From NCBI GenBank assembly GCA_004296885.1, contig SCVN01000007.1, positions 124,001 through 188,000 on the forward strand: DNA of 64,000 bases. Reading direction: 5' to 3'. This stretch comes from Nitrospirota bacterium (GTDB taxonomy: Bacteria; Nitrospirota; Nitrospiria; Nitrospirales; Nitrospiraceae). The first letter of the stretch is position 1; each line of letters opens with the position of its first letter. The notes beneath the pieces were generated by a model, which ran no database searches, was not told where the DNA came from, and worked only from the letters and a program-made list of their open reading frames with translations. A program made the position numbers and the translations under genes. Shown one piece after another: positions 4,136-53,148 of the stretch.

Positions 4136-4659
4136 GCCTTCACCGACTCCTTGACCTGCTCCGGCTGCTTGGTGAATACCCGCTTTTGCATGATCCGTTC
4201 TTGCAATTTCAGAATCCCGTCGAAGAGCGCCTCGGGAGTCGGCGGACAGCCCGGGACGTAAATGTCCACCGGCACGAACCGGTCCACCCCTTGCACGACA
4301 CTATAGCTGTCATAGATATTGCCGGACGTGGCGCAAGAGCCCATGGCGATCACGTACTTGGGCTCTGGCATCTGGTCGTAGATTTTCCGGATGACGGGCG
4401 CCATCCGCCGGCAGACGGTTCCGGCCACGATCATCAGGTCCGATTGACGGGGAGAAGCCCGGAACACGCCGGCTCCGTAGCGATCCATGTCATAGCGTGA
4501 GGAAACGGCCGCGATCATTTCGATCGCGCAGCAAGCCAGCCCGAAGGTCATCGGCCAGAGCGAGCCCTTGCGCGCCCAGTTGACGGCCTTCTCGACCGTC
4601 GTCGTGATGACGTCCAGGTCTCCGTCCTTCTCGCGCTTGCCCAGTTGGATCAGTCCCAT
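4132..4659 (-). CDS. nuoB: NADH-quinone oxidoreductase subunit B
   Basis: PSST subunit carrying the terminal [4Fe-4S] cluster N2, which hands electrons to quinone; 175 residues. Visible ligands are the adjacent cysteines in [10 protein letters not shown], the cysteine in MGSCATSGN and the one in [11 protein letters not shown]. Second gene of the nuo operon; overlaps nuoC by four bases and follows nuoA after a 76-base gap that holds an inverted repeat. Confidence 0.97.
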
Positions 4660-4668
4660 GTCACACCC

Positions 4669-4730
4669 AACGATGAATGGGGAACGCGACGCTCCCTTCG
4701 TTCATCACTCATCATTCTGCGTTCATCGTT
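4669..4730. repeat. Intergenic inverted-repeat element (GATGAA dialect), nuoA-nuoB
   Basis: AACGATGAA at 4669-4677 is matched perfectly by TTCATCGTT at 4722-4730, with further degenerate TTCATCA units between. Lies between two co-transcribed complex I genes, so it would be a hairpin inside the mRNA. Confidence 0.75.
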
Positions 4731-4735
4731 GCCGC

Positions 4736-5119
4736 TCAGTCCCATTCCAACGCCCCCTTCTTCCAGGCATACACATAAGCCACCAGGAACAAGGCGATAA
4801 AGATCAGCATCTCGACCAGTCCGATAAATCCGATCTTGTAAAAGGTCACGGCCCAGGGATAGAGAAAAATCACTTCGATGTCGAAGATGACGAACAGCAT
4901 GGCAAAGATGTAATACCGGACCGGGAAGGGCATCCGGGCATCGGAAAAGGGCTCGCTCCCGCACTCATAGGCGCTGAGCTTTTCCGCATCCGGATACTTG
5001 GGCTGGACCAGATAGCTGATCACCAGCGTCACGACGCCGAAAGCCAGCGCAATGACGATGAAGAGCAGGATCGGGAAATAGCGAGTCAAATACTCGAGGA
5101 GCAACTCGGTGCCGCTCAC
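4736..5119 (-). CDS. nuoA: NADH-quinone oxidoreductase subunit A
   Basis: Small membrane subunit of complex I; 127 residues with three predicted transmembrane helices (about residues 12-34, 66-90, 97-119). The family signature YECGSEPFSDARMPFPVRYY is near residues 51-70. First gene of the operon. Start is GTG at 5119, preceded by a purine-rich GGGAGCGGGGG stretch; a promoter lies about 45 bases upstream. Confidence 0.95.
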   Translation of the reverse strand: MSGTELLLEYLTRYFPILLFIVIALAFGVVTLVISYLVQPKYPDAEKLSAYECGSEPFSDARMPFPVRYYIFAMLFVIFDIEVIFLYPWAVTFYKIGFIGLVEMLIFIALFLVAYVYAWKKGALEWD

Positions 5120-5143
5120 AAAACCCCCGCTCCCAACACCTTG

Positions 5144-5158
5144 ACTTCCAATGGAAGT
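5144..5158. promoter_or_regulatory. Candidate operator: perfect inverted repeat at nuoA transcription start
   Basis: ACTTCC at 5144-5149, three bases, then GGAAGT at 5153-5158. It overlaps the transcription start predicted from the nuoA promoter, a position suited to repression. The protein that binds it is unknown. Confidence 0.4.
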
Positions 5159-5163
5159 TCGGC

Positions 5164-5193
5164 ATTTTAGTCGTGCCTCTCTGCCAATAGCAA
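5164..5193 (-). promoter_or_regulatory. sigma70-type promoter for the nuo operon
   Basis: On the minus strand: -35 TTGCTA (5188-5193), 18-base spacer, -10 TAAAAT (5164-5169). The -10 context CTAAAATG recurs at 7256 and 31707. The transcript would start near 5157, giving a leader of about 40 bases before the nuoA GTG. Confidence 0.55.
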
Positions 5194-5658
5194 GCGCACA
5201 AAGGACCTACGGGCTAGGAACCGAAAGCCCTAGCCACGAGCACGCAACGCTCCCATCGTTTTGTTTTTTCAGCGATCCTTGTCCGGAGGCAGATCGGCGG
5301 AGACGGGTGGCAAGCCGATTGAGGGCCATATCAGCAGGCCGGTCAAGCCTGCTCTGGTCGCCTGCGCATCTTGTCTTGGGGTGTCCGCAATCCCTGCGGA
5401 GGCTCGCCTGATGCGGCATCCCACTCGGCTTGGAGCGGGGACCGCGCTTTCGCCTTGTTCCGCCGGTGAATCTGAGTTTCAATCCGGCGGGGCAGCGGCC
5501 CGGGAAGGCGGACTGGTTTCGGACTGGCTGGCTTGGGATCATGGGCCATGGCATCCCTCACGGAGGGCATCCGATCTCGCATCACGTACACTGCACGCTA
5601 GCACCAGCAGAAACCGCCTGTCAAACCGCCAGACACGTAGAAGCTTTGCCGTCTTGGC
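5194..5658. other. Gene-free stretch between nuoA and the OmpA-like gene
   Basis: No reading frame here looks like a protein. A hairpin can form at 5212-5235 (GGCTAGG ... CCTAGCC, 7-bp stem), and a T-rich run follows at about 5259-5270. Short open frames on both strands have arginine/proline-rich translations typical of GC-rich non-coding DNA. I could not match it to a known RNA family. Confidence 0.5.
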
Positions 5659-5686
5659 TTGACAATGATCGTCAGTTTGCTATGGT
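5659..5686 (+). promoter_or_regulatory. sigma70-type promoter for the OmpA-like gene
   Basis: Consensus -35 TTGACA at 5659-5664, 16-base spacer, -10-like TATGGT at 5681-5686. It drives the gene starting at 5721 and excludes the longer upstream open frame as coding. Confidence 0.55.
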
Positions 5687-5720
5687 TACGCCCATGTCTT
5701 GGCTTTGGCGTCGGAGGCCT

Positions 5721-7208
5721 ATGAATTGCCGCCTGTTTCTAACCATTTGCGTCACGTTGGCCACAGGTCTCTTGCTGATCCAGGCTCCCGCCTCGGCTGA
5801 CCACCCCGGCATCGAGAGCGTGCGCATGGGGGAAGCGGCCCTGACTTTCTCCTCAGGCTTTGTCCGTCCCTCGATGCCCATCGAAGGCATCGTCGGCCCC
5901 TTGAACGCCGACGCCCAGACAACCAGCAACAAAATGATTCTGGGCACCGGCGACCTGTGCTACCTGCAATTGACCAAAGCCAGCACCATCGAAGTCGGCG
6001 CCCATGTCACGATCTACCGACGCATCAACGAAATATTTCACCCGGCCAAGGGCAAGTACCTCGGCGATCTGTTCACCAACGTCGGCATCGGCCTGATCAC
6101 GGAAATCACACAGGGGCTCGCCACCGTGCGCATCGTTCGCTCCTGGGGACCCATCAACGCCGGCGATCGCGCAATCCGCTTTGTCCCCCCGCCCCCGGAA
6201 GAACCACCGGTGCCGGGCCGCAGGCTGCCGAGCGTGCCCGGCTATATCATCGCCTTTCCGCCATCGCTCTCTTTGATCGCCCAGACGCATATCGTGTATA
6301 TCGACTGGGGACGCAACGACGGGCTCCACACGGGAGACCGACTGGACGTGTTGCGGACCTCGGCGAACGTTCCCGTGCAGAGGATCGGCGAGTTGAAGGT
6401 GCTGGCCCTGGAAGATACGACGGCCACCGCCCTTGTCGTCCGCTCTACCGTGCCCTTTCTCCGTGCCGACCGGATCGCGTTCCAGGAACCAGCCCAGTCA
6501 GTCGTCCGCCGCTCCTCCGCAGAAACCATTGCCGAAGAAATGGACCGGCTGGCCAAAGCGGCACCGCCCGAGAAAGAAGCCACGCAACCGGCACTCGGCG
6601 CGCCGGAGCCTGGCCTTGATCTCTCCCGCCTCGCCGCCCTGGCTAAACAACTGGAGTTCGATCCGGGAGGCGCCCCGATCAGGCCGGCCGGACAAGCCGC
6701 GTTGAAAGAGATCGGCGAAATATTGAAAACCGTCTCGGACAAACAGATTCGCATCGAAGGGCACACGGACCGGATGCCGATCGGCCCTTCGCTTATAGGG
6801 CAATATTCGAATAACCTCGAACTCTCGAAGGCCCGGGCAAAAGAAATCGTCCGCTACCTCGCGGAAGAAGGCGGGGTGGATCCGGCCAACCTGATCGTTG
6901 TCGGACATGGCGACACAAAACCGGTGGCCAGCAACAGCACGGAGGACGGACGGAAACAGAATCGCCGGATTGAAATCGTGCTGGCGCCCAAGAAATCGCC
7001 TCCGTTGCTTTCCACCGGCCCGGCGGTCCAACCGGAACCCGAACGATCACCCGCTTCCTTGCCCGAACCAAATCCGCCAACACCGGCTGAACCGGCAAGG
7101 GTAGAGGAGGCCACTCCCCAATCCCCTCCGGTCGGCGAGCCGGCCCCCGCAACGAAGGGGGGGCCAGGAGACGCACCGCTTCCGCCCTCTCCGCCTTCGA
7201 TTCCGTAG
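5721..7208 (+). CDS. Exported OmpA/MotB C-terminal domain protein
   Basis: Envelope protein likely to bind peptidoglycan non-covalently; 495 residues. It begins with a signal peptide (MNCRLFLTICVTLATGLLLI, cleavage near ASA-D). A roughly 230-residue N-terminal region of unrecognised fold follows, with two segments of internally similar style (VGAHVTIYRR and LHTGDRLDVLR). Then an OmpA-like domain (IRIEGHTDRMPI, LSKARAKEIVRYL, VVGHGDTKPVA, NRRIEIVL) and a proline-rich tail of about 60 residues. GGAGG at 5713-5717 precedes ATG 5721 closely. Longer starts upstream would include the promoter and are rejected. Confidence 0.85.
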   Translation: MNCRLFLTICVTLATGLLLIQAPASADHPGIESVRMGEAALTFSSGFVRPSMPIEGIVGPLNADAQTTSNKMILGTGDLCYLQLTKASTIEVGAHVTIYRRINEIFHPAKGKYLGDLFTNVGIGLITEITQGLATVRIVRSWGPINAGDRAIRFVPPPPEEPPVPGRRLPSVPGYIIAFPPSLSLIAQTHIVYIDWGRNDGLHTGDRLDVLRTSANVPVQRIGELKVLALEDTTATALVVRSTVPFLRADRIAFQEPAQSVVRRSSAETIAEEMDRLAKAAPPEKEATQPALGAPEPGLDLSRLAALAKQLEFDPGGAPIRPAGQAALKEIGEILKTVSDKQIRIEGHTDRMPIGPSLIGQYSNNLELSKARAKEIVRYLAEEGGVDPANLIVVGHGDTKPVASNSTEDGRKQNRRIEIVLAPKKSPPLLSTGPAVQPEPERSPASLPEPNPPTPAEPARVEEATPQSPPVGEPAPATKGGPGDAPLPPSPPSIP

Positions 7209-7232
7209 CCGGACAACCCCGCGTTTGCCTGA

Positions 7233-7261
7233 TTGTTCCACCGCAACCCGACTGCTAAAAT
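7233..7261 (+). promoter_or_regulatory. Candidate promoter for priA
   Basis: TTGTTC at 7233-7238, 17-base spacer, TAAAAT at 7256-7261 in the same CTAAAATG context as the nuoA promoter. The -35 is weak. Supports a priA start downstream of 7261. Confidence 0.4.
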
Positions 7262-7334
7262 GCCGTATGCTTACGATTGTGTTTCCCAAGCCCTTCACGT
7301 CACGAACCGTCTCGTGACCCAATCCCCTGCAGCC

Positions 7335-9662
7335 ATGAGTCCGGCTCCGGCTTTTGCGGATGTGCTGGTTCCCCGGCACCTGCGCCGGGCTTTCACCTAT
7401 CGCATTCCCGCCCCGCTCCGCCAACACCTTGCGGTCGGCAGCCGAGTCCTGGTGCCATTCGGTCCCAGCACCATCCAGGGTGTGGTGATCGCCCTGGCGG
7501 TGGCACCGCCTCCCTCCTTCTCCAAGCCGGCCGCGGTCGAGCGCCTGAAGGAAATCATCGCGCTTGCGGACGACGCAGAGGCAAGCGTGGCGCCGCCGGA
7601 CCTCCTGGAACTGACCCGCCTCGTGGCAGACCAGTACCTCGCTCCTTGGGGCCAGTGCCTCCGGTTGGCCCTGCCGCCCCCCGTGCCATCCATCAAGCCT
7701 CCGCCGTACTACCGCATCACCGATGCAGGCAAGGCGGCGGACGGATCGTCATCCGCCAAGCTCTCGGCCCAGGCGCGCGAGCTGCTCGCGCGCCTGATGG
7801 CGACGCCCAGACGCAAGGGCCTGACGCTGGCCACGCTCAGCCGAGGCATGGAAGGGCCGCTGACCCGCACCCTCACGGACCTGAAGCGCCGGGGATTGTT
7901 GTTGGAGGAATGCGCGGAAGCCGCTGCCCCCCGTCAGCCCCGATCGACCGCCCGGCGAGCACACCGCATGCACAGCCTGTTTCAGGCAGAGCCGGACCAG
8001 TCTTGCAGCACCCTCCGTCTTCCTCCTGTCCTGCCATTCTGGCAAGAGCGGCTGCACGAGGCGCTGCAAAGCGGAGGCGGCCGGGCGTTGCTCCTGCACG
8101 CACCCTGGACCGATCGCATTGCCGGTTACCTCTGCGCCGCCGAGGAGGCGCTCGGCCGGCACCGCACCGTCCTCATCATTTCCCCGGACTCAACGCGCGC
8201 CTCGGCCATCGCCGGCGCCGCGCGGGCCAGATGGGGCGAGCAGGTGGAGTTGCTGCACAGCGGCCTGTCTCCGTCGGCGCGCGAGGCGGCCTGGCGCAAA
8301 ATCCATGCAGGAAGCGTGGCCGTGGTGGTGGGAACCAGGTCCGCCATCTTTGCGCCCCTCGCCTCCCTCGGCCTCATCTGCGTCGACCAGGAGGACGATC
8401 AGTCCCTGAAGGAAGAACAAGAGCCCCGCTACCAGGCACGCGACGTAGCCAAGCTCCGCGCAGGTCAGCACGGCGCCCTGCTGCTGCTCGGCTCGGCCCA
8501 TCCTTCGCTGGAAACCTGGCAGGCGATGGCAGACGGCGCGAAGAGCGAACGGATGTTATCGTTGTCCGCCGAGCAACTGCCCTTGGCCAAGCTCCCCCCC
8601 ATCTACGTGATCGACTTGCGCCAGACTCCCTATGGGACGGTCCTCTCTCAATCCGTGCTGGACGGCATCAAAGCGGCGGTGGACGCCAAGGCCGGAGCGG
8701 TCTTGTTTTTAAACCGCAAAGGATTTGCCTCCGCGCTGCTCTGCCGGGACTGCGGCAACGCCCCACGCTGTCCGCACTGTTCCGTGTCGCTGACCTACTA
8801 CCGCCAATCCGCCACCCTGGCCTGCCGCTACTGCGGCACCGCGACGCCGCCGCCCGACACCTGCCCGACCTGCCAAGGCGCCAGACTGGAACCGGTGGGG
8901 TCAGGCACGGAACGATTGGAGGAGATGCTGCGGCGCCTCTTGCCCCAAGCGAGCATTGCCAGGCTCGACCGCGACCAGGCCAAGACACAGGCCCAAGCGG
9001 ACCGGCTGCGGGCGGAAGCGGCGGCGGGCAAATGGGACATCCTCATCGGCACACAGATGCTGCTGCAAGGCCTCCCTCTGCCACGGGTGGGCTTCGTCGG
9101 CATCGCCAATGCGGATGCGGGACTCCACGCGGCGGACTTCCGCGCCGCCGAGCGCACCTACCACGCCTTGCTGGACGCAACGGCCTTGGCCAAGCCGGCA
9201 GACGAAGGCGGCAGGGTGCTGATCCAAACGTCGCTGCCGAGCCACCATGCCATCACCGCCGTGGTCCAGCACAACCCGGCACTCTTCTATGAGCAAGAGT
9301 TGCTCTCGCGACAGGCCCTCGGCTATCCGCCGTTCACCCATTTGATCAGCTTGCAGGTATCCGGCACACAAGCTGGAGCCGTCAAACAGGCGGCGACGCA
9401 CTGGGCCAAGCTGCTCCACCATGCGATTCCGACGATCTCGAAACCGGCACCGGGCGATCCCGAGCCGGTGACGATTCTCGGCCCGGTCCCGGCCCAGCAT
9501 GCACAACTCCGCGGACGACACCGGTACCAGCTTCTGGTCAAAGCGGTCAGCGCGGAGCAAGCCCGCCACACGGTGAAGGCCACGCTGGACGCAATGGAGC
9601 GCACAAGGGGGAAGAGCGGATTACGGTTCGACGCGGATGTGGACCCGCTGGAGATGACGTAA
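7335..9662 (+). CDS. priA: Primosomal protein N' (PriA) with degenerate helicase motifs
   Basis: Replication-restart protein that recognises stalled forks; 775 residues from ATG 7335, where the conserved ADVLVPRHLRRAFTYRIP begins. The eight zinc-binding cysteines are intact (CRDCGNAPRCPHC ... CRYCG ... CPTC), as are GTRSAIF, FLNRKGFA and the C-terminal domain (ILGPVPA, FDADVDPLEM). The ATPase motifs are not. The Walker A site (E. coli GVTGSGKTEVY) is HAPWTDRIAGY at 8097-8130; Walker B DEEH is DQED near 8385; motif V GTQMLAKG is GTQMLLQG; the arginine-finger motif QVAGRAGR is replaced by an unrelated sequence near 9170-9220. Helicase activity is therefore unlikely, as is already accepted for actinobacterial PriA. 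DNA binding and primosome scaffolding may remain. Confidence 0.9.
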   Translation: MSPAPAFADVLVPRHLRRAFTYRIPAPLRQHLAVGSRVLVPFGPSTIQGVVIALAVAPPPSFSKPAAVERLKEIIALADDAEASVAPPDLLELTRLVADQYLAPWGQCLRLALPPPVPSIKPPPYYRITDAGKAADGSSSAKLSAQARELLARLMATPRRKGLTLATLSRGMEGPLTRTLTDLKRRGLLLEECAEAAAPRQPRSTARRAHRMHSLFQAEPDQSCSTLRLPPVLPFWQERLHEALQSGGGRALLLHAPWTDRIAGYLCAAEEALGRHRTVLIISPDSTRASAIAGAARARWGEQVELLHSGLSPSAREAAWRKIHAGSVAVVVGTRSAIFAPLASLGLICVDQEDDQSLKEEQEPRYQARDVAKLRAGQHGALLLLGSAHPSLETWQAMADGAKSERMLSLSAEQLPLAKLPPIYVIDLRQTPYGTVLSQSVLDGIKAAVDAKAGAVLFLNRKGFASALLCRDCGNAPRCPHCSVSLTYYRQSATLACRYCGTATPPPDTCPTCQGARLEPVGSGTERLEEMLRRLLPQASIARLDRDQAKTQAQADRLRAEAAAGKWDILIGTQMLLQGLPLPRVGFVGIANADAGLHAADFRAAERTYHALLDATALAKPADEGGRVLIQTSLPSHHAITAVVQHNPALFYEQELLSRQALGYPPFTHLISLQVSGTQAGAVKQAATHWAKLLHHAIPTISKPAPGDPEPVTILGPVPAQHAQLRGRHRYQLLVKAVSAEQARHTVKATLDAMERTRGKSGLRFDADVDPLEMT

Positions 9663-9663
9663 C

Positions 9664-9690
9664 GGAATGATGAATGCAAAACGATGAACG
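9664..9690. repeat. Single arm of the GATGAA intergenic repeat
   Basis: GGAATGATGAATG followed by AACGATGAACG between the convergent priA and TlpA-like stop codons. No matching inverted arm is visible. Confidence 0.5.
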
Positions 9691-9696
9691 TAGAGG

Positions 9697-10221
9697 CTAG
9701 CGTTTCAGTCCCGCCAAGAACTCCCGATACTTGGGGTTTTGATTGATCCCGCCGCCACGGTGGACCAACTGAATATTCCCATTTGAGTCCAGCAGGACGA
9801 ACGTCGGCGTGGCAGTCACCTTGAATGCCTGGGATATCCAATTGTCCTCATCAAAGGCAGTTGGAAACACGAACGTCTCAGGATGGGACTTCACATAGGC
9901 TTCCACGTTTCCCCGCATATCGGAAAACCCAATGGCGACGACCTGAAGTGATACCGGCCTCTCCTGCTGATAGAACTGGCCCAGGATCGGCAATTCCTTC
10001 CGGCAGACCGGACACCAGGGAGCCCAGAATACCAGCAGCGCTGAGCGCCCCTTGAGAGACTCCTTGCTGTAGGCTTCTCCGGCCAACGTGACGAGATCAA
10101 ACCGGGGCGCAGCGGAGGCTGCGGGTTCAGCCGCAGCCTCCACCGTCTGCCCAACCAGAAAGAGGACGCTCAGGCCAGCCACGACAAGCGACAGCACGAT
10201 CAACTGTGTCTTGCGTCGCAT
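9697..10221 (-). CDS. TlpA/ResA-like thiol-disulfide oxidoreductase
   Basis: Exported thioredoxin-fold protein that probably reduces or isomerises disulfides outside the cytoplasm; 174 residues from ATG 10221. N-terminal hydrophobic signal/anchor (about residues 8-26), then a TlpA-like domain with active site WAPWCPVCRKELP, cis-proline region ATPTFVLLD and a central insertion typical of the family. Fifteen bases after the DsrE-like gene, with which it forms a two-gene operon. A longer frame upstream overlaps that gene and is not used. Confidence 0.85.
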   Translation of the reverse strand: MRRKTQLIVLSLVVAGLSVLFLVGQTVEAAAEPAASAAPRFDLVTLAGEAYSKESLKGRSALLVFWAPWCPVCRKELPILGQFYQQERPVSLQVVAIGFSDMRGNVEAYVKSHPETFVFPTAFDEDNWISQAFKVTATPTFVLLDSNGNIQLVHRGGGINQNPKYREFLAGLKR

Positions 10222-36526: not shown

Positions 36527-37531
36527 CTACAGAGAGCCTTCGCCTTTGAGGTAACTCCGGAACCGATCCATCAACTCGGCGCCGAGCGTGCCGCCTTCGG
36601 GCTTTTTCGTTTCCGGGTCCTTGAAGTGCTCCCGGATCTCGGCGAGACGCTTTTCAGCTTGCTCATTGCCCTGCAGACGCTTCGTTTTTTGCAGCGCCGT
36701 CTCAAAGGCGTCGAAGGTCAACTCTTTGTAACCGAAGCTTCGGATACGTTTGACGGCCTTCATCATGGCCTCGTTTCGGAACTTCGTGAGATGATCCGAA
36801 TCAATCTCCTTCAGCCCCAGCTTACGGGCCCGGCGCTCGGCGGCTTTTCGGATTCCGCTGCGCACGAAGTCCGGCGAGGTCTGCAGCCGCTTCCAGGATT
36901 CATCCGTCCACGCAACCCGTTCCAAGGGCGCGTCCCACAGCTGCGTCAGCGCCGCTTCGTCGATCCGCGCCAGCCCCTTGTCGCGGGCCATATCCTCCGT
37001 GTCCCGCTTGAGCATATCGGTGACGAAGTCCATGGCGATCGGCGGCGCCTCCTTGATCTTTTCCTGCAGCCGTCCCAGGGCCCCTTCGCTCCACTCCATC
37101 GGGGGACGCGCCGCCTCCTGTACATCGCCCAGCGCTTCGACACGCTCGAAGAGCTCGACGTTGACTTCCAGGTGGCCGCCTTCGACGGCCAACTCCTCGG
37201 CGATCTGTTTGATCATCGACTGCATGAATTCCGGCACCGCGGCCAATCGCTCCCGGGCCGCGGCGGTCCAGGGCAATTTCCCCTGAGCCATCTGGTCGGC
37301 GGCTGCCGCCATGCCCGCCTCCCCGCCCATGCGCCCCATCATCTGGCCCTTGAACTGGTCCAGGATCGCGCCGGTGATTTCGGGATAGCCGAGCTCGCGG
37401 GCTTTTTTCTCGGCCAGCTTCTTCACCATCCCGCGGAGAAACGTCGGGGCCCGCTCCATGCGCTGCAGCGCGTCCTCGGTCCAGAGGATGTCGGGCGCGG
37501 CGGCCTGATGTTGCGAATCGAGAGTTCCCAT
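36527..37531 (-). CDS. Protein of four tandem PCP_red modules
   Basis: 334 residues. Four copies of an approximately 45-residue helical module, W-(T/S)-x2-A-x2-R(L/M)-x3-P-x-F-(V/L)-x6-K-x-A-E-x2-A, at about residues 15-60 (ILWTEDALQRMERAPTFLRG), 86-128, 144-198 and 206-250 (VAWTDESWKRLQTSPDFVRS). The third is the most divergent. The module is the one at the C-terminus of light-independent protochlorophyllide reductase subunit B (PCP_red family), here without any chlorophyll enzyme. Follows the ihf gene by 20 bases at the end of the large aromatic/rpsA block. Biochemical role unknown. Confidence 0.8.
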   Translation of the reverse strand: MGTLDSQHQAAAPDILWTEDALQRMERAPTFLRGMVKKLAEKKARELGYPEITGAILDQFKGQMMGRMGGEAGMAAAADQMAQGKLPWTAAARERLAAVPEFMQSMIKQIAEELAVEGGHLEVNVELFERVEALGDVQEAARPPMEWSEGALGRLQEKIKEAPPIAMDFVTDMLKRDTEDMARDKGLARIDEAALTQLWDAPLERVAWTDESWKRLQTSPDFVRSGIRKAAERRARKLGLKEIDSDHLTKFRNEAMMKAVKRIRSFGYKELTFDAFETALQKTKRLQGNEQAEKRLAEIREHFKDPETKKPEGGTLGAELMDRFRSYLKGEGSL

Positions 37532-37551
37532 ACTGAGCCTTTCGGGCTGAT

Positions 37552-37830
37552 TTACCGGTTTAACAGCTCTTTCAGTTCCTTGCCGGCCTTGAAGAACGGC
37601 ACCCGCTTGGCCGGGACCGCCACGGTCGCGCCGGTCTTCGGATTGCGGCCTTCCTTCATCCGGCGGGCGCGCAGACGAAAGCTGCCGAACCCCCGAATCT
37701 CGGTCTTGTCACCTTTTTGCAGCGAGTTGCGGATGCTGTTGAAGATGGTGTTCACGACGATCTCAGCCTGTCGCTTGGTCAATGTCGTGACTTGTTCCGA
37801 GACTCGTTCGATGATCTGTGCCTTCGTCAT
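37552..37830 (-). CDS. HU/IHF-type DNA-binding protein
   Basis: Nucleoid protein that bends DNA; 92 residues, typical length. MTKAQIIERVSEQVTTLTKR at the N-terminus, the beta-arm signature GFGSFRLRARRMKEGRNPKT and the C-terminal VPFFKAGKELKELL are conserved. Position downstream of rpsA-sppA parallels ihfB downstream of rpsA in proteobacteria, so an IHF-beta-like identity is favoured, but alpha/beta/HU cannot be separated with certainty. Confidence 0.92.
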   Translation of the reverse strand: MTKAQIIERVSEQVTTLTKRQAEIVVNTIFNSIRNSLQKGDKTEIRGFGSFRLRARRMKEGRNPKTGATVAVPAKRVPFFKAGKELKELLNR

Positions 37831-37878: not shown

Positions 37879-38775
37879 TCAGAACGCCATCAGGTACTTG
37901 AGGCTGACGCCGGTCTGAAAGTCCAGCCGGGGAAGCGGGCCGAACACATGGCTTTCGAGCAGCTCCCTGACCGAGAACCGCCGCCGGGGCTCCACCACTT
38001 TGGGCTCCCCCTCGATGCCGCCCATCTCGGCGGCGAGCTTAATGGCATCGTCCAGGTCACCCAGCTCATCCACCAGCTTGGCGGCCTTGGCCTGTCGGCC
38101 GGTAAAAACGCGTCCATCGGCCAGCGTGCGGACCTCGCGCACATCCAGCGAGCGCCCTTCGGCCACGGCCTCGATGAACTGGTTGTGCACATCGTCCATC
38201 ACGGCCTGGAGAATAAGACGGTCATCTTCTTTCATCTTTCGGAACGGCGACCCGATGTCCTTGTGCTCACCACTCTTGACCACCACGCTCTCCACACCGA
38301 TTTTCTTGAGGAGGCCCTCGAAGTTCGCCAACTCCATGATCACCCCTATGCTGCCCGTCAAGGTGCCGGGATTGGCCATGATCCGGTCGGTGGCGGCGGC
38401 GATGTAGTAACCTCCCGAAGCCGCCACCGTCCCCATCGAGGCGACGACGGCCTTGTTGTTCTTGCTCCGGATGCGCTTCACCGCATCATAGATTTCCTGA
38501 GACGGCACCACTCCGCCGCCGGGACTGTCGATCCGCAGGACGATGGCCTTCACCGAGGGACTCTCCGCGTACTTCTTCAGGTCCCCCACGGTCTGCTGGG
38601 CATCCAGAATCACCCCCTCGACGCGGATCAAGGCGACCCGATCCTCGCCGGACACGTCGAGATCCGGCCCCAGGATATTGGCCAGCGTCAGGAGCAGGAA
38701 TCCCCCCAGCACAAGCCAGAAGAGGATCCGCAAGGGCTTCCAGCGACGCGGTTTCTGAGTGCTGTCGTCCGTCAT
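37879..38775 (-). CDS. sppA: Signal peptide peptidase SppA
   Basis: Membrane-anchored serine protease that degrades cleaved signal peptides; 298 residues from ATG 38775. One N-terminal membrane helix (ILFWLVLGGFLLLTLANIL), then an SppA domain with VLRIDSPGGGVVPSQEIYDA, catalytic serine in GTVAASGGYYIA, and lysine in SGEHKDIGSPFRKM. The short (half-length) form typical of many bacteria. Downstream of rpsA in the same block. A second ATG 15 bases upstream is possible. Confidence 0.93.
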   Translation of the reverse strand: MTDDSTQKPRRWKPLRILFWLVLGGFLLLTLANILGPDLDVSGEDRVALIRVEGVILDAQQTVGDLKKYAESPSVKAIVLRIDSPGGGVVPSQEIYDAVKRIRSKNNKAVVASMGTVAASGGYYIAAATDRIMANPGTLTGSIGVIMELANFEGLLKKIGVESVVVKSGEHKDIGSPFRKMKEDDRLILQAVMDDVHNQFIEAVAEGRSLDVREVRTLADGRVFTGRQAKAAKLVDELGDLDDAIKLAAEMGGIEGEPKVVEPRRRFSVRELLESHVFGPLPRLDFQTGVSLKYLMAF

Positions 38776-38853
38776 GAGCGTAAGAACCATCCGCTTGCAC
38801 CCGTCGGCGGCCGGCGCTGTGCCGGCCGCCGACGGCGTCGTTGCTGTCGTCCG

Positions 38854-40572
38854 TTACCCGTTGCCCGATTCGTCGTCGTTGCGCTTCTTGGTCTTTTTGG
38901 CCGCCCGCCCGAGCGTCTGATCCAGCACGCCCTGGGTAGCATGGTACTCGTCCACCTGCTTCCGCTCCGAGTCCATCACGTGTTCCCGCAGGCTCAACGC
39001 GATCTTCCGCTCATCCCGGTCCACCTTGATGATCTTGGCCGCCACGTCGTCCCCGACCTTGAACTTCTCCTCCATGCGTACCGAGGGCTCCAGCCCCGTC
39101 TCGCTGATATGGATCAGCCCTTCCAGGCCGCCTTCCAGTTCGACGAACACACCGAAGTCCGTGATCTTGGTGACCTTGCCGTTCACGCTGGTCCCCATCC
39201 GATACTTCGACGGAATCTCGTCTTCCCAGGGATCGCGGCTCAGCTGCTTGTATCCCAACGACAGCCGTTCTTTTTCCTTGTCGATCCGCAGCACGACCGC
39301 GGACACCGGCTGGCCCTTCTTGAACAGCTCGGACGGGTGCTTGATGTGCTTGGTCCAGGACATGTCGGAAATGTGGATCAAGCCGTCGATCCCCTCATCC
39401 AGACCGACGAAGGCGCCGAAATCTGTCAGACTCTTCACCTTCCCCTCGATGCGGGTGCCGCTCGGGTACTTGGCCTCGACCATGTCCCAGGGGTTCGGCG
39501 CGGTCTGCTTCATCCCCAGCGAGATCTTCCGGCTGTTGGGATCTACGTTCAGGACCGCCGCTTCGACCTGATCCCCGACCGAGACCAGGCGGGACGGATG
39601 CCGGACTTCATGCGTCCAGGACATTTCGGACACGTGCACCAATCCTTCGACGCCCGGCTCCAGCTCGATGAACGCGCCATAGTCGGTTAGGCTCACGACC
39701 CGCCCCTTTACCCTGGTCCCAACCGGGTACTTGTTGCCCACGTTCGTCCAGGGATCCGCGCCCTTTTGCTTCAGGCCGAGCGAGATCCGGCCCGTCTCAC
39801 GGTCGTACTTCAATACCATGACTTCCACTTTGTCGCCGATCACGAACAGCTCGGAGGGATGGCCGACCCGCCCCCAGGACATGTCCGTGATGTGCAGCAA
39901 GCCGTCGATCCCACCCAGGTCGATGAAGGCGCCGTACTCGGTGATGTTCTTGACCATGCCCTGGATCAACTGGCCTTCCTTCAGCGTCGAGAGGGTCGTC
40001 TGCCGTTTCTTATCCCTGGTCTCCTCCAGCAGGACGCGGCGCGACACCACCACGTTCCCCCGGCGATGGTTGATCTTGATGATCTTCAGTGGGAAGGTCT
40101 TGCCGACCAAGCCGTCCAGGTCGCGCACGGGATGCAGATCGATTTGCGAGCCGGGCAGGAAGGCTTTGACGCCGATGTCCACCATCATCCCGCCCTTGAT
40201 GCGGGAGATGATCCGGCCCTCGACGACTTTCTCGTCCTTGTGGGCCTTTTCCAGTTCCTCCCAGACCTTCATCTTGTCGGCTTTTTCCTTCGACAAGATC
40301 AGGTTGCCGTCGGCGTCCTCGCGCTCTTCGATATAGACCTGCAACCGGTCGCCCGGCTTCAGCCCCTGCAGGTCTTCCGGCACAAACTGATCGGTCGGGA
40401 TGATCCCTTCCGACTTGTACCCGATGTCCACGACCACTTTGTCTTTGCTGACCGCCACCACGCGGCCCTCGATGATCGTGCCCTCTTCGAAGTTCCGGAA
40501 GGTCTCTTCGTACAGAGCCTCCAAGGCCACCCGGTCCATCACCTCGCCCGCCTGCTTCGTTGCCATGTCCAT
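38854..40572 (-). CDS. rpsA: 30S ribosomal protein S1
   Basis: mRNA-binding ribosomal protein; 572 residues with six S1 (OB-fold) domains, comparable to E. coli. The first two diverge, the last four carry the regular core (YGAFIELEPGVEGLVHVSEM, FGAFVGLDEGIDGLIHISDM and similar). A lysine-rich C-terminal tail ends KKTKKRNDDESGNG. Lies between plsC and sppA; the cmk-(plsC)-rpsA order is a widespread bacterial arrangement. AGGA lies eight bases before ATG 40572. Confidence 0.97.
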   Translation of the reverse strand: MDMATKQAGEVMDRVALEALYEETFRNFEEGTIIEGRVVAVSKDKVVVDIGYKSEGIIPTDQFVPEDLQGLKPGDRLQVYIEEREDADGNLILSKEKADKMKVWEELEKAHKDEKVVEGRIISRIKGGMMVDIGVKAFLPGSQIDLHPVRDLDGLVGKTFPLKIIKINHRRGNVVVSRRVLLEETRDKKRQTTLSTLKEGQLIQGMVKNITEYGAFIDLGGIDGLLHITDMSWGRVGHPSELFVIGDKVEVMVLKYDRETGRISLGLKQKGADPWTNVGNKYPVGTRVKGRVVSLTDYGAFIELEPGVEGLVHVSEMSWTHEVRHPSRLVSVGDQVEAAVLNVDPNSRKISLGMKQTAPNPWDMVEAKYPSGTRIEGKVKSLTDFGAFVGLDEGIDGLIHISDMSWTKHIKHPSELFKKGQPVSAVVLRIDKEKERLSLGYKQLSRDPWEDEIPSKYRMGTSVNGKVTKITDFGVFVELEGGLEGLIHISETGLEPSVRMEEKFKVGDDVAAKIIKVDRDERKIALSLREHVMDSERKQVDEYHATQGVLDQTLGRAAKKTKKRNDDESGNG

Positions 40573-51292: not shown

Positions 51293-52039
51293 CTACATGA
51301 ACTTCATGAACTTGTCTTTGGCCTCGTCCATCACCTGCGCCGTGATCGTGGTGGCGCCGCGCTCCTTCGCCAGCCGCTCGATCTCGCGGCGGGCCATGGG
51401 GCGGATGAAGTCCGGGATGTTTTCCAGCCGCTTCTCCGCATCGGCCGACCAGGTGACGCCGTTGGAGTCGTTCTTGGAATCGTCCATCACTTGCAACGTG
51501 ATGGTGGTCAGGCCATTCTTGCGGGCATAGGCCTCGATACTGCTCTGCACCATCGGTTTGACGAAGGAGGGGAGCCGGTCCAGTTTCTCTTTCGCATCCG
51601 GGGTCCAGGCAAAGTCCGACGTGCCTGGCTGGCTGGACGTCAACCCCATCTGCGCCACCATGGCGGAGAAGGGACAGCCGCCCGCCTTCTCGCCTTCTTT
51701 CGCCGGAGTCTCGGCGCTCGCCGTGGCGCCCGCCGCAGGCGCGGCCGGCTTGCCGGCCTGAATCTTTTCGTTCAGGTAGGCGGCCATCTGGCCGGAGCCG
51801 GCGAGAGCTTCGTCTTTGAGCGTACCCCGCGTCATTTCAAACGGCTGGGCCGCTTCGGTGCGGCCGCCCAGCTTGACGCCGAGCGAACTGACCATCTGAG
51901 TTTCGCCCGGGTTCGTCACCATCGAGAACTTGGCGCTGCAGGAGGGGCAGGCGAAAAAGACGCCCAGCGAACCTTCCGCCGGTTTTTCCACCTTCTCGAA
52001 GGTCATGTAGGTTTCACAATTCAAACAGACGAATTTCAT
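51293..52039 (-). CDS. Zinc-ribbon protein with two C-terminal PCP_red modules
   Basis: 248 residues from ATG 52039, with AAGGAG upstream. N-terminal zinc ribbon C5-x2-C8 ... C31-x2-C34 (FVCLNCETY, FACPSCSAK), an alanine/proline-rich linker (about 92-120), GGCPFSAM, then two PCP_red modules at about 143-190 (FAWTPDAKEKLDRLPSFVKP) and 195-243 (VTWSADAEKRLENIPDFIRP). Both modules match the protochlorophyllide reductase B C-terminal domain very closely. Downstream of the Mrp gene on the same strand. A role in Fe-S or redox chemistry is plausible from that neighbour but unproven. Confidence 0.8.
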   Translation of the reverse strand: MKFVCLNCETYMTFEKVEKPAEGSLGVFFACPSCSAKFSMVTNPGETQMVSSLGVKLGGRTEAAQPFEMTRGTLKDEALAGSGQMAAYLNEKIQAGKPAAPAAGATASAETPAKEGEKAGGCPFSAMVAQMGLTSSQPGTSDFAWTPDAKEKLDRLPSFVKPMVQSSIEAYARKNGLTTITLQVMDDSKNDSNGVTWSADAEKRLENIPDFIRPMARREIERLAKERGATTITAQVMDEAKDKFMKFM

Positions 52040-52108: not shown

Positions 52109-53026
52109 CTACAACTTTTCCGCCAACACCTTCTTATAGTCCAGCATCGCCTGGACCCGCTCCGCGATCTCCTGATAGCGCTGGATGGTCGGGTACGTGG
52201 CGTCCAACAGTGGCAGGCCCTTGTCGAAGGTCCGCGCCAGCGTCCGATCGAAGGGGACGCGGCCCAGCAAAGGCACGTTCAACGCGTCGCACATGGCGTC
52301 CGTGTCCCCCTCGAACAGTTCGTGCTCGACGCCGCAGGAAGGGCACCGGAACCGGCTCATATTCTCCACCATGCCCAGCACGTGGATCCCCATGTCCCTG
52401 GCATAGGTCACCGATTTCTGCACGACGTCGGAGGCGACCTCGGAGGGCGTCGTCACGACGATCGCCCCGGCCAGGTCCGGGATGAACCCGGCGATGACCG
52501 GCGGCTTGTCCGCCGCGGCCCCGGGCGGCAGGTCGGTCAGCAGGTAGTCCAACTCGCCCCATATCACGTCCGCCAGGAACTCGCGGATCACGTTCATTTC
52601 CATCAGCCCGAGCCAGACCGGGCTCAGGTCCATCGGCCCTTTCCAGCGCACGGGCGACGCAGCGCCCAGAAAGAAGTCCATGGACGCGACCTTGACCCCC
52701 AATGGGCCGACCGGCGGAATGGCCCCCTCCGGCGTAATGGTGAGCGCCTGCCCATGCATGCCCAGCATGCGCGGCACGCAAGGCCCGTTCAGGTCCACGT
52801 CCAGCAGCCCCACTTTATGCCCCAGGCGGGCCAGCGCCAGAGCCAGGTTCACCGTGGTCATGCTCTTGCCGACGCCGCCCTTGCCGCTCATGACCACCAG
52901 CTTGTGCCGGATGCCGGCCATGCGGGCCTGTACCTGCTTCATCTGCGCGGTAATCTGCTGGACGACCTTGGCGTCGTCGCTGTACTGGAGCTTGCTGAGG
53001 ATGGATTTCAGGTCTTTATCGGCCAT
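52109..53026 (-). CDS. Mrp/NBP35-family P-loop ATPase (iron-sulfur carrier)
   Basis: Assembles or carries [4Fe-4S] clusters to apo-proteins; 305 residues from ATG 53026. Deviant Walker A MSGKGGVGKSMTTVNLALAL, switch I LLDVDLNGPCVPRMLG, DYLLTDLPPG, and the cluster-binding CxxC in RFRCPSCGVEHELF. No N-terminal DUF59 domain. Downstream of the sulfate-assimilation genes, several of which encode Fe-S enzymes (CysH, sulfite reductase), so it may serve them. Confidence 0.93.
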   Translation of the reverse strand: MADKDLKSILSKLQYSDDAKVVQQITAQMKQVQARMAGIRHKLVVMSGKGGVGKSMTTVNLALALARLGHKVGLLDVDLNGPCVPRMLGMHGQALTITPEGAIPPVGPLGVKVASMDFFLGAASPVRWKGPMDLSPVWLGLMEMNVIREFLADVIWGELDYLLTDLPPGAAADKPPVIAGFIPDLAGAIVVTTPSEVASDVVQKSVTYARDMGIHVLGMVENMSRFRCPSCGVEHELFEGDTDAMCDALNVPLLGRVPFDRTLARTFDKGLPLLDATYPTIQRYQEIAERVQAMLDYKKVLAEKL

Positions 53027-53148
53027 GACGAACTCCAAAGAGACTGTCAGCCGTCAGCAACAGGCTACTCTTGATTGCTGAAGGCCGGGTGTCGATCGCT
53101 TCGTGGCATTGGCACGGTAACACAGGGGTTTCGAGGGAGTCAAACCGC

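Follow-up and report, generated by a model that had tools for sequence, protein, structure and literature searches.

A tandem PCP_red protein of Nitrospirota is a likely partner of a radical SAM enzyme system

Why would a non-photosynthetic bacterium keep a protein with four copies of PCP_red (PF08369), the C-terminal domain of BchB/ChlB? The question is raised by a gene at 36527..37531 (minus strand) of the window, the 64,000-nucleotide stretch of Nitrospirota DNA analyzed here. The gene starts with ATG and encodes 334 residues, the stop being included in the coordinates; we call its product the tetra protein. A putative ribosome-binding-like site, read from the sequence as GAAAGG (37538..37543, minus strand), precedes the ATG, inside the 20-nt gap after an HU gene. 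No search in this analysis assigned a function to the gene. Nor did we find a paper on a multi-module PCP_red form in the open-licence literature, which is weak evidence of absence.

Against the Pfam PCP_red profile (cut-off 32.5 bits), the whole protein scored 141.8 bits (E 6e-42) over four stretches, all on the minus strand. Scored singly, module 1 (residues 15–64, 37340..37489), module 4 (residues 206–255, 36767..36916) and module 2 (residues 86–135, 37127..37276) passed, at 54.1, 47.2 and 45.0 bits, respectively. Thus not all four modules fell below threshold, the outcome that an earlier note on this DNA had named as counting against its assignment. Module 3 (residues 145–201, 36929..37099) is divergent and failed, at 21.7 bits (E 8e-4). 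Its W147, P163 and F169 are invariant in 58 aligned rows, and in AlphaFold models its predicted secondary structure resembles that of the other modules. The four modules of the earlier note were thus borne out, but the protein does not consist only of them, as a conserved tail (residues 256–334, 36530..36766, minus strand) belongs to it. Within residues 256–304 of this tail, 11 of 49 columns are invariant and 24 of 49 are conserved at 90% or more (58 rows), about the level of the modules. Module 4 is the most conserved part of the protein, with 16 of 51 columns invariant in the same rows. The tail has the look of half a fifth module with two helices after it; fifth-module matches in relatives are weak (E 0.09–0.26). 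In the gene fusions described below, it accompanies module 4.

Structure prediction, which the earlier note had called for, agreed with this assignment. Two AlphaFold models (53 and 58 rows; m96fff9a49302 and mb7ab853e0a6f) are of modest confidence, with mean pLDDT 68.4 and 69.6 and pTM 0.42. Both predict a strand–helix–helix–strand–helix topology for the module. The best structural matches of the predicted modules are the solved PCP_red domains 2KRU and 2L09. Module 1 superposes on 2KRU with Z 8.5 and 8.9 in two comparisons (rmsd 3.2 over 59 aligned residues for the Z 8.5 fit), and module 4 on 2L09 with Z 8.1 twice (rmsd 2.4, 62 aligned). No BchB crystal or cryo-EM chain was among the 50 fold matches listed. 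Weaker rows comprise RuvB/RuvBL AAA+ C-domains, histones and ClpC N-domains (Foldseek E 0.2 or worse, Z 6–7.8), a likeness of the models that may merely reflect a common arrangement.

To see how widely the gene is kept, we turned to related genomes. Among the best 80 of 102 related stretches, the nearest relatives are from Nitrospira genomes (81% identity for N. moscoviensis and 76% for N. defluvii), and full-length relatives at 61–98% identity occur in 80 genome loci. The window itself is Nitrospira DNA. A full-length model was then run on 395 Nitrospirota genomes, 163 in the gene's own class and 232 outside it (counts made by hand). The gene is present in 158 of the 163 at E ≤ 1e-121; the five exceptions (G380, G308, G358, G161 and G238) gave only weak or partial matches. 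Outside the class, 6 of 232 genomes matched below 1e-60, three in family f11 and three in f13. The tetra gene is therefore near-universal in its class, and so in Nitrospira, a non-photosynthetic nitrifier group. Nitrospira are nitrite oxidisers and comammox organisms, and rank among the major nitrifiers. As for single modules, the genome searches covered Nitrospirota and 14 control genomes. At least one PCP_red module was found in 78 of 148 sampled Nitrospirota genomes, the 40 own-class genomes among them each holding 9–12, and in one of the 14 controls, Synechococcus elongatus. Plasmid records held no match to the tetra protein.

Comparison with six relatives gave dN/dS values of 0.024–0.086 for the tetra gene, which is thus under strong purifying selection. 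With the full-length relatives, this shows that the modular protein is no product of chance. These data bear on the idea, suggested by the domain's name and its homology with the BchB C-terminus, that the gene is a functionless relic of a lost photosynthetic apparatus. The selection data contradict it, the gene has been kept by nearly the whole class, and most module positions form separate groups in a tree of modules; we give the idea next to no chance. Nor is chlorophyll chemistry indicated elsewhere in the genome, which is 100% complete by estimate. PF00148 (the BchN/BchB/NifD family) has no match in it and matches 4 of 14 control genomes. PF00142 (NifH-like) has seven weak-to-moderate matches, the best at 46.2 bits, for a model that also matches 14 of 14 controls. 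The absence of PF00148, together with PCP_red on several non-photosynthetic proteins, upholds the earlier note's argument against chlorophyll chemistry.

What do the neighboring genes say? Upstream of the tetra gene, on the minus strand, lie, in order of distance, an HU/IHF-family gene (37552..37830; PF00216, 104 bits), sppA for signal peptide peptidase (37879..38790; TIGR00706, 255 bits) and rpsA for ribosomal protein S1 (38854..40572; NF004952, 809 bits). The earlier note had placed the gene at the end of an rpsA-sppA-ihf block. The position is real, with the HU/IHF-family gene directly preceding the tetra gene in the same orientation in 76 of 80 loci, sppA present in 75 and rpsA present in 73, but "ihf" is better given as HU/IHF family, since the IHF-beta score (111.3 bits) misses the cut-off of 115. 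Such constancy could mean that the tetra protein is a nucleoid- or translation-linked partner of HU, and the weak structural resemblance of the modules to histones and AAA+ C-domains would fit. Yet with a pI of 6.0 and a net charge of –3 the protein is slightly on the acidic side (median pI 6.2 over 81 rows), those structural matches reach Foldseek E 0.2 at best and the fusions point elsewhere. Moreover, none of the tested neighbors was found in the four deepest-branching of the 80 loci, which are also the four without HU. We regard a nucleoid or translation-linked role as very improbable. In some of the deepest relatives, the tetra gene adjoins Mrp/ribbon-PCP_red or radical SAM genes instead, so the rpsA-sppA-HU position is not the informative context.

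The host genome holds 12 PCP_red modules across five proteins, the tetra protein included. One of the others lies in the window, ∼14 kb from the tetra gene: a ribbon-like protein (51293..52039, minus strand) with two CxxC pairs (residues 5 and 31) and two PCP_red modules (PF08369, 122.9 bits). It adjoins a gene for an Mrp/NBP35-type P-loop ATPase (52109..53038, minus strand; PF10609, 245 bits). This pair recurs in the G117, G054 and G012 loci (L157, L163 and L168), adjoining in L163 and L168 as in the window. In plasmid records, the ribbon-PCP_red query retrieved BchB only (5 of 5 records). Family f21 has a one-module ribbon-PCP_red gene (L165:5617-5997, L166:4877-5275) that does not adjoin Mrp; on one side of it lies a 530-residue gene and on the other a short one resembling leuD by eye. 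A 163-residue protein with two modules is encoded on contig C20 of the host genome (L090:5167-5658, plus strand), between a DUF420 gene and a gene for a cytochrome-bd-like oxidase (PF01654, 68 bits), the latter one gene further along. The remaining two are encoded by adjacent genes: a 707-residue protein of the order Usp-Usp-PCP_red-rubredoxin-PCP_red-PCP_red, directly followed by a 459-residue radical SAM/SPASM-PCP_red protein and then by a CopD-like membrane protein.

The Mrp pairing raises the possibility of Fe–S or metal delivery, with PCP_red proteins serving the Mrp/NBP35 ATPase and the tetra protein as their scaffold. In G117, G155, G360 and G368, genes for Mrp, ribbon-PCP_red and a heme-oxygenase-like protein (PF14518, 100 bits for G117) are clustered around the tetra gene itself. 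Against this reading, it is radical SAM and Usp proteins that the fusions involve, and no fusion with Mrp was seen among the loci examined. Furthermore, the tetra protein has no conserved Cys column in 58 rows, only 8 of which contain any Cys. A delivery role is thus decidedly unlikely, and Fe–S binding by the tetra protein itself, one of the options of the earlier note, finds no backing.

An indication of function came from gene fusions. In three draft genomes of f13, belonging to two genera (G008, G049 and G054), a radical SAM/SPASM-PCP_red protein runs on into tetra modules 2–4 and the tail, in one open frame of ∼706–730 residues. BLAST of the tetra protein against the C-terminal halves of the three fusions gave 37–41% identity, with E 5e-63 to 2e-71 when scaled to a 1e8-letter database. 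The alignment spans tetra residues 17–330, at 40% identity, and has a pairwise E of 4e-71 for G049. In the module tree, in which 53 columns were retained and support is accordingly limited, the first fused module falls among radical SAM modules (97/93) and fused module 4 joins its counterpart in the tetra protein. For module 2, the fused and tetra copies meet at a fork with nil SH-aLRT support. We considered the tetra protein as a fission product of a radical SAM-PCP_red protein and rejected this, as tetra module 1 stands apart from the radical SAM module in this tree of few columns. For the same reason, a fusion in which module 1 was lost is the better fit. A further fusion, in G012 (f7), joins module 4 and the tail to a Usp-PCP_red protein (E 8e-15); its module 4 groups with tetra module 4 (91/92) and its gene adjoins one for radical SAM-PCP_red.

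Gene order and co-occurrence point the same way. In G181, which belongs to the tetra gene's own class, four genes are contiguous on the minus strand of L202, with gaps of ∼245, 90 and 43 nt: Usp-PCP_red-rubredoxin (7578-9959 and on), radical SAM-PCP_red (5935-7332), tetra (4864-5844) and CopD-like (4341-4820). The first is enlarged, with five PCP_red and three rubredoxin-like stretches. Of 40 sampled own-class genomes, 39 match the AhbD model TIGR04545 at E ≤ 1e-60, the exception being G018. In the host genome, the radical SAM gene lies ∼100 kb from the tetra gene, not in one operon. It is likely, and we would say highly so, that the tetra protein is linked to the radical SAM system. The fusion with a radical SAM enzyme is the main new fact reported here. 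What was an orphan repeat of a domain now has a particular radical SAM enzyme as its likely partner. Fusions and gene order also lend indirect support to the protein-binding role that the earlier note had listed.

The radical SAM partner matches PF04055 and PF13186, and the CX3CX2C motif and SPASM cysteines were preserved in all five examples examined. All five Usp partners have at least one ATP-type G2XG9XG(S/T) motif, and three of the five have a Cys4 rubredoxin. The nearest named families of the radical SAM partner are NirJ2 (TIGR04055) and AhbD (TIGR04545), each with an equivalog cut-off of 500 bits. The host protein scored 324.6 bits against NirJ2 and 312.9 against AhbD, and three other radical SAM-PCP_red proteins scored 301–348 bits against the two. 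All fall well under both cut-offs, so the scores do not fix the substrate class of the partner. It differs from these families also in its PCP_red arm and its Usp/rubredoxin and CopD-like partners. The solved structures nearest to it include PqqE and SkfB. Both of these enzymes act on peptides.

Judging from sequence comparisons, we lean, a little better than evenly, towards the tetra protein being a separable, non-catalytic arm of this Nitrospirota radical SAM system, a scaffold or substrate adapter, with PCP_red domains as docking units. This reading follows from the arm being in the same frame as radical SAM/SPASM-PCP_red in three relatives and a separate gene in others, and from PCP_red being shared by three parts. 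The system would combine a part for ATP binding and redox, a radical catalyst, a membrane component and, as scaffold, the tetra protein; the links between them are fusions, gene order and co-occurrence. PCP_red modules would hold these parts together. The tetra protein may present the substrate, or it may connect the radical SAM enzyme with the ATP-binding/rubredoxin protein. Its working surface would be module 4 and the tail, in which R215, R224, R252, R262 and R295 are invariant. The substrate might be a tetrapyrrole or a tetrapyrrole-bearing protein, a suggestion we make with less assurance.

Several observations bear on that last point. In all three f13 genomes, a HemY-family gene stands beside the fusion (L161:3184-4572, L162:3327-4712 and L164:3202-4587), and the two of these proteins that were scanned scored 290.7 and 304.4 bits (cut-off 97.85). 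A second HemY copy is found elsewhere in each, in G008 and G049 together with HemN and HemH. The HemY gene of f13 occupies the slot after the fusion that in some own-class genomes is held by the CopD-like gene. We rejected the CopD-like protein as a HemY replacement: 9 of 9 own-class genomes tested have HemY elsewhere, and no HemJ profile is among its Pfam matches. The two proteins of family f14 that were scanned (L170:5036-6055 and L169:5537-6676) carry PCP_red on the N-terminal side of a Cld/HemQ-like domain. These features, with NirJ2/AhbD as nearest families, give the tetrapyrrole leaning. Against it stand the peptide enzymes among the nearest solved structures, an Arg-for-His difference in one f14 Cld-like domain and the failure of a simple heme synthase reading, both described below. 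A tetrapyrrole substrate is plausible but on balance improbable.

The host genome encodes HemH, HemY and two Cld-family proteins; HemF is absent from it, as is HemN (best match 176.6 bits, cut-off 325). Might radical SAM-PCP_red then be the missing heme synthase, a substitute for coproheme decarboxylase? As its sole role, this was rejected. Cld/HemQ (PF06778) is absent from G117, G129, f7, f11 and f13, and a heme route is present in Cld-less genomes: HemN and HemH in G008 and G049, HemN, HemF and HemH in G129, and HemF and HemH in G117. Since genomes hold both the system and a protoporphyrin-type route, the system is not simply a heme synthase.

One may also ask whether the tetra protein handles tetrapyrroles by itself, each module binding a porphyrin or precursor that the protein stores, passes on or senses. 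Such a carrier or sensor would suit the presence of PCP_red on BchB, on NirJ2/AhbD-like radical SAM proteins and on the Cld/HemQ-like domain, as well as the HemY copy next to the fusion, and the conserved arginines could meet propionates. However, no His or Cys is invariant in 58 rows, H120 being the sole strongly conserved His (95%), and PCP_red also occurs on proteins that have no known tetrapyrrole, namely those with Usp, rubredoxin or ribbon parts. We think it unlikely that the protein acts in this way. Returning to the docking arm, its boldest extension would be a so far undescribed Nitrospirota radical SAM pathway, docked through PCP_red, that makes or inserts a modified tetrapyrrole cofactor. 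In it, the tetra protein would be the substrate-presenting scaffold, and a broader docking family, made up of tetrapyrrole enzymes, would include BchB PCP_red as one of its branches. This is speculative, and we would not expect it to hold.

Compared with known PCP_red proteins, the tetra protein shares profile and fold with the C-terminal domain of BchB/ChlB (solved as 2KRU). It differs in its four copies, its unique tail and its lack of a nitrogenase-like core, in a genome that has no PF00148 partner. Against the model for the BchB/ChlB subunit of DPOR (TIGR01278, cut-off 490 bits), it scored 70.5 bits, over the module regions only. Asr4154 of Nostoc (2L09), a 62-residue PCP_red protein, likewise has no BchB core, but has one module and no tail. 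We know of no radical SAM link for Asr4154. The fusions suggest why BchB has PCP_red at all: the domain would belong to a general docking family and not be a chlorophyll-specific part. In f14, the PCP_red and Cld matches lie close together on one contig, in open frames of equal length, in 13 genomes. The L170 protein of this family has Arg in its Cld-like domain where the aligned Nitrospira protein has His, presumably the heme ligand.
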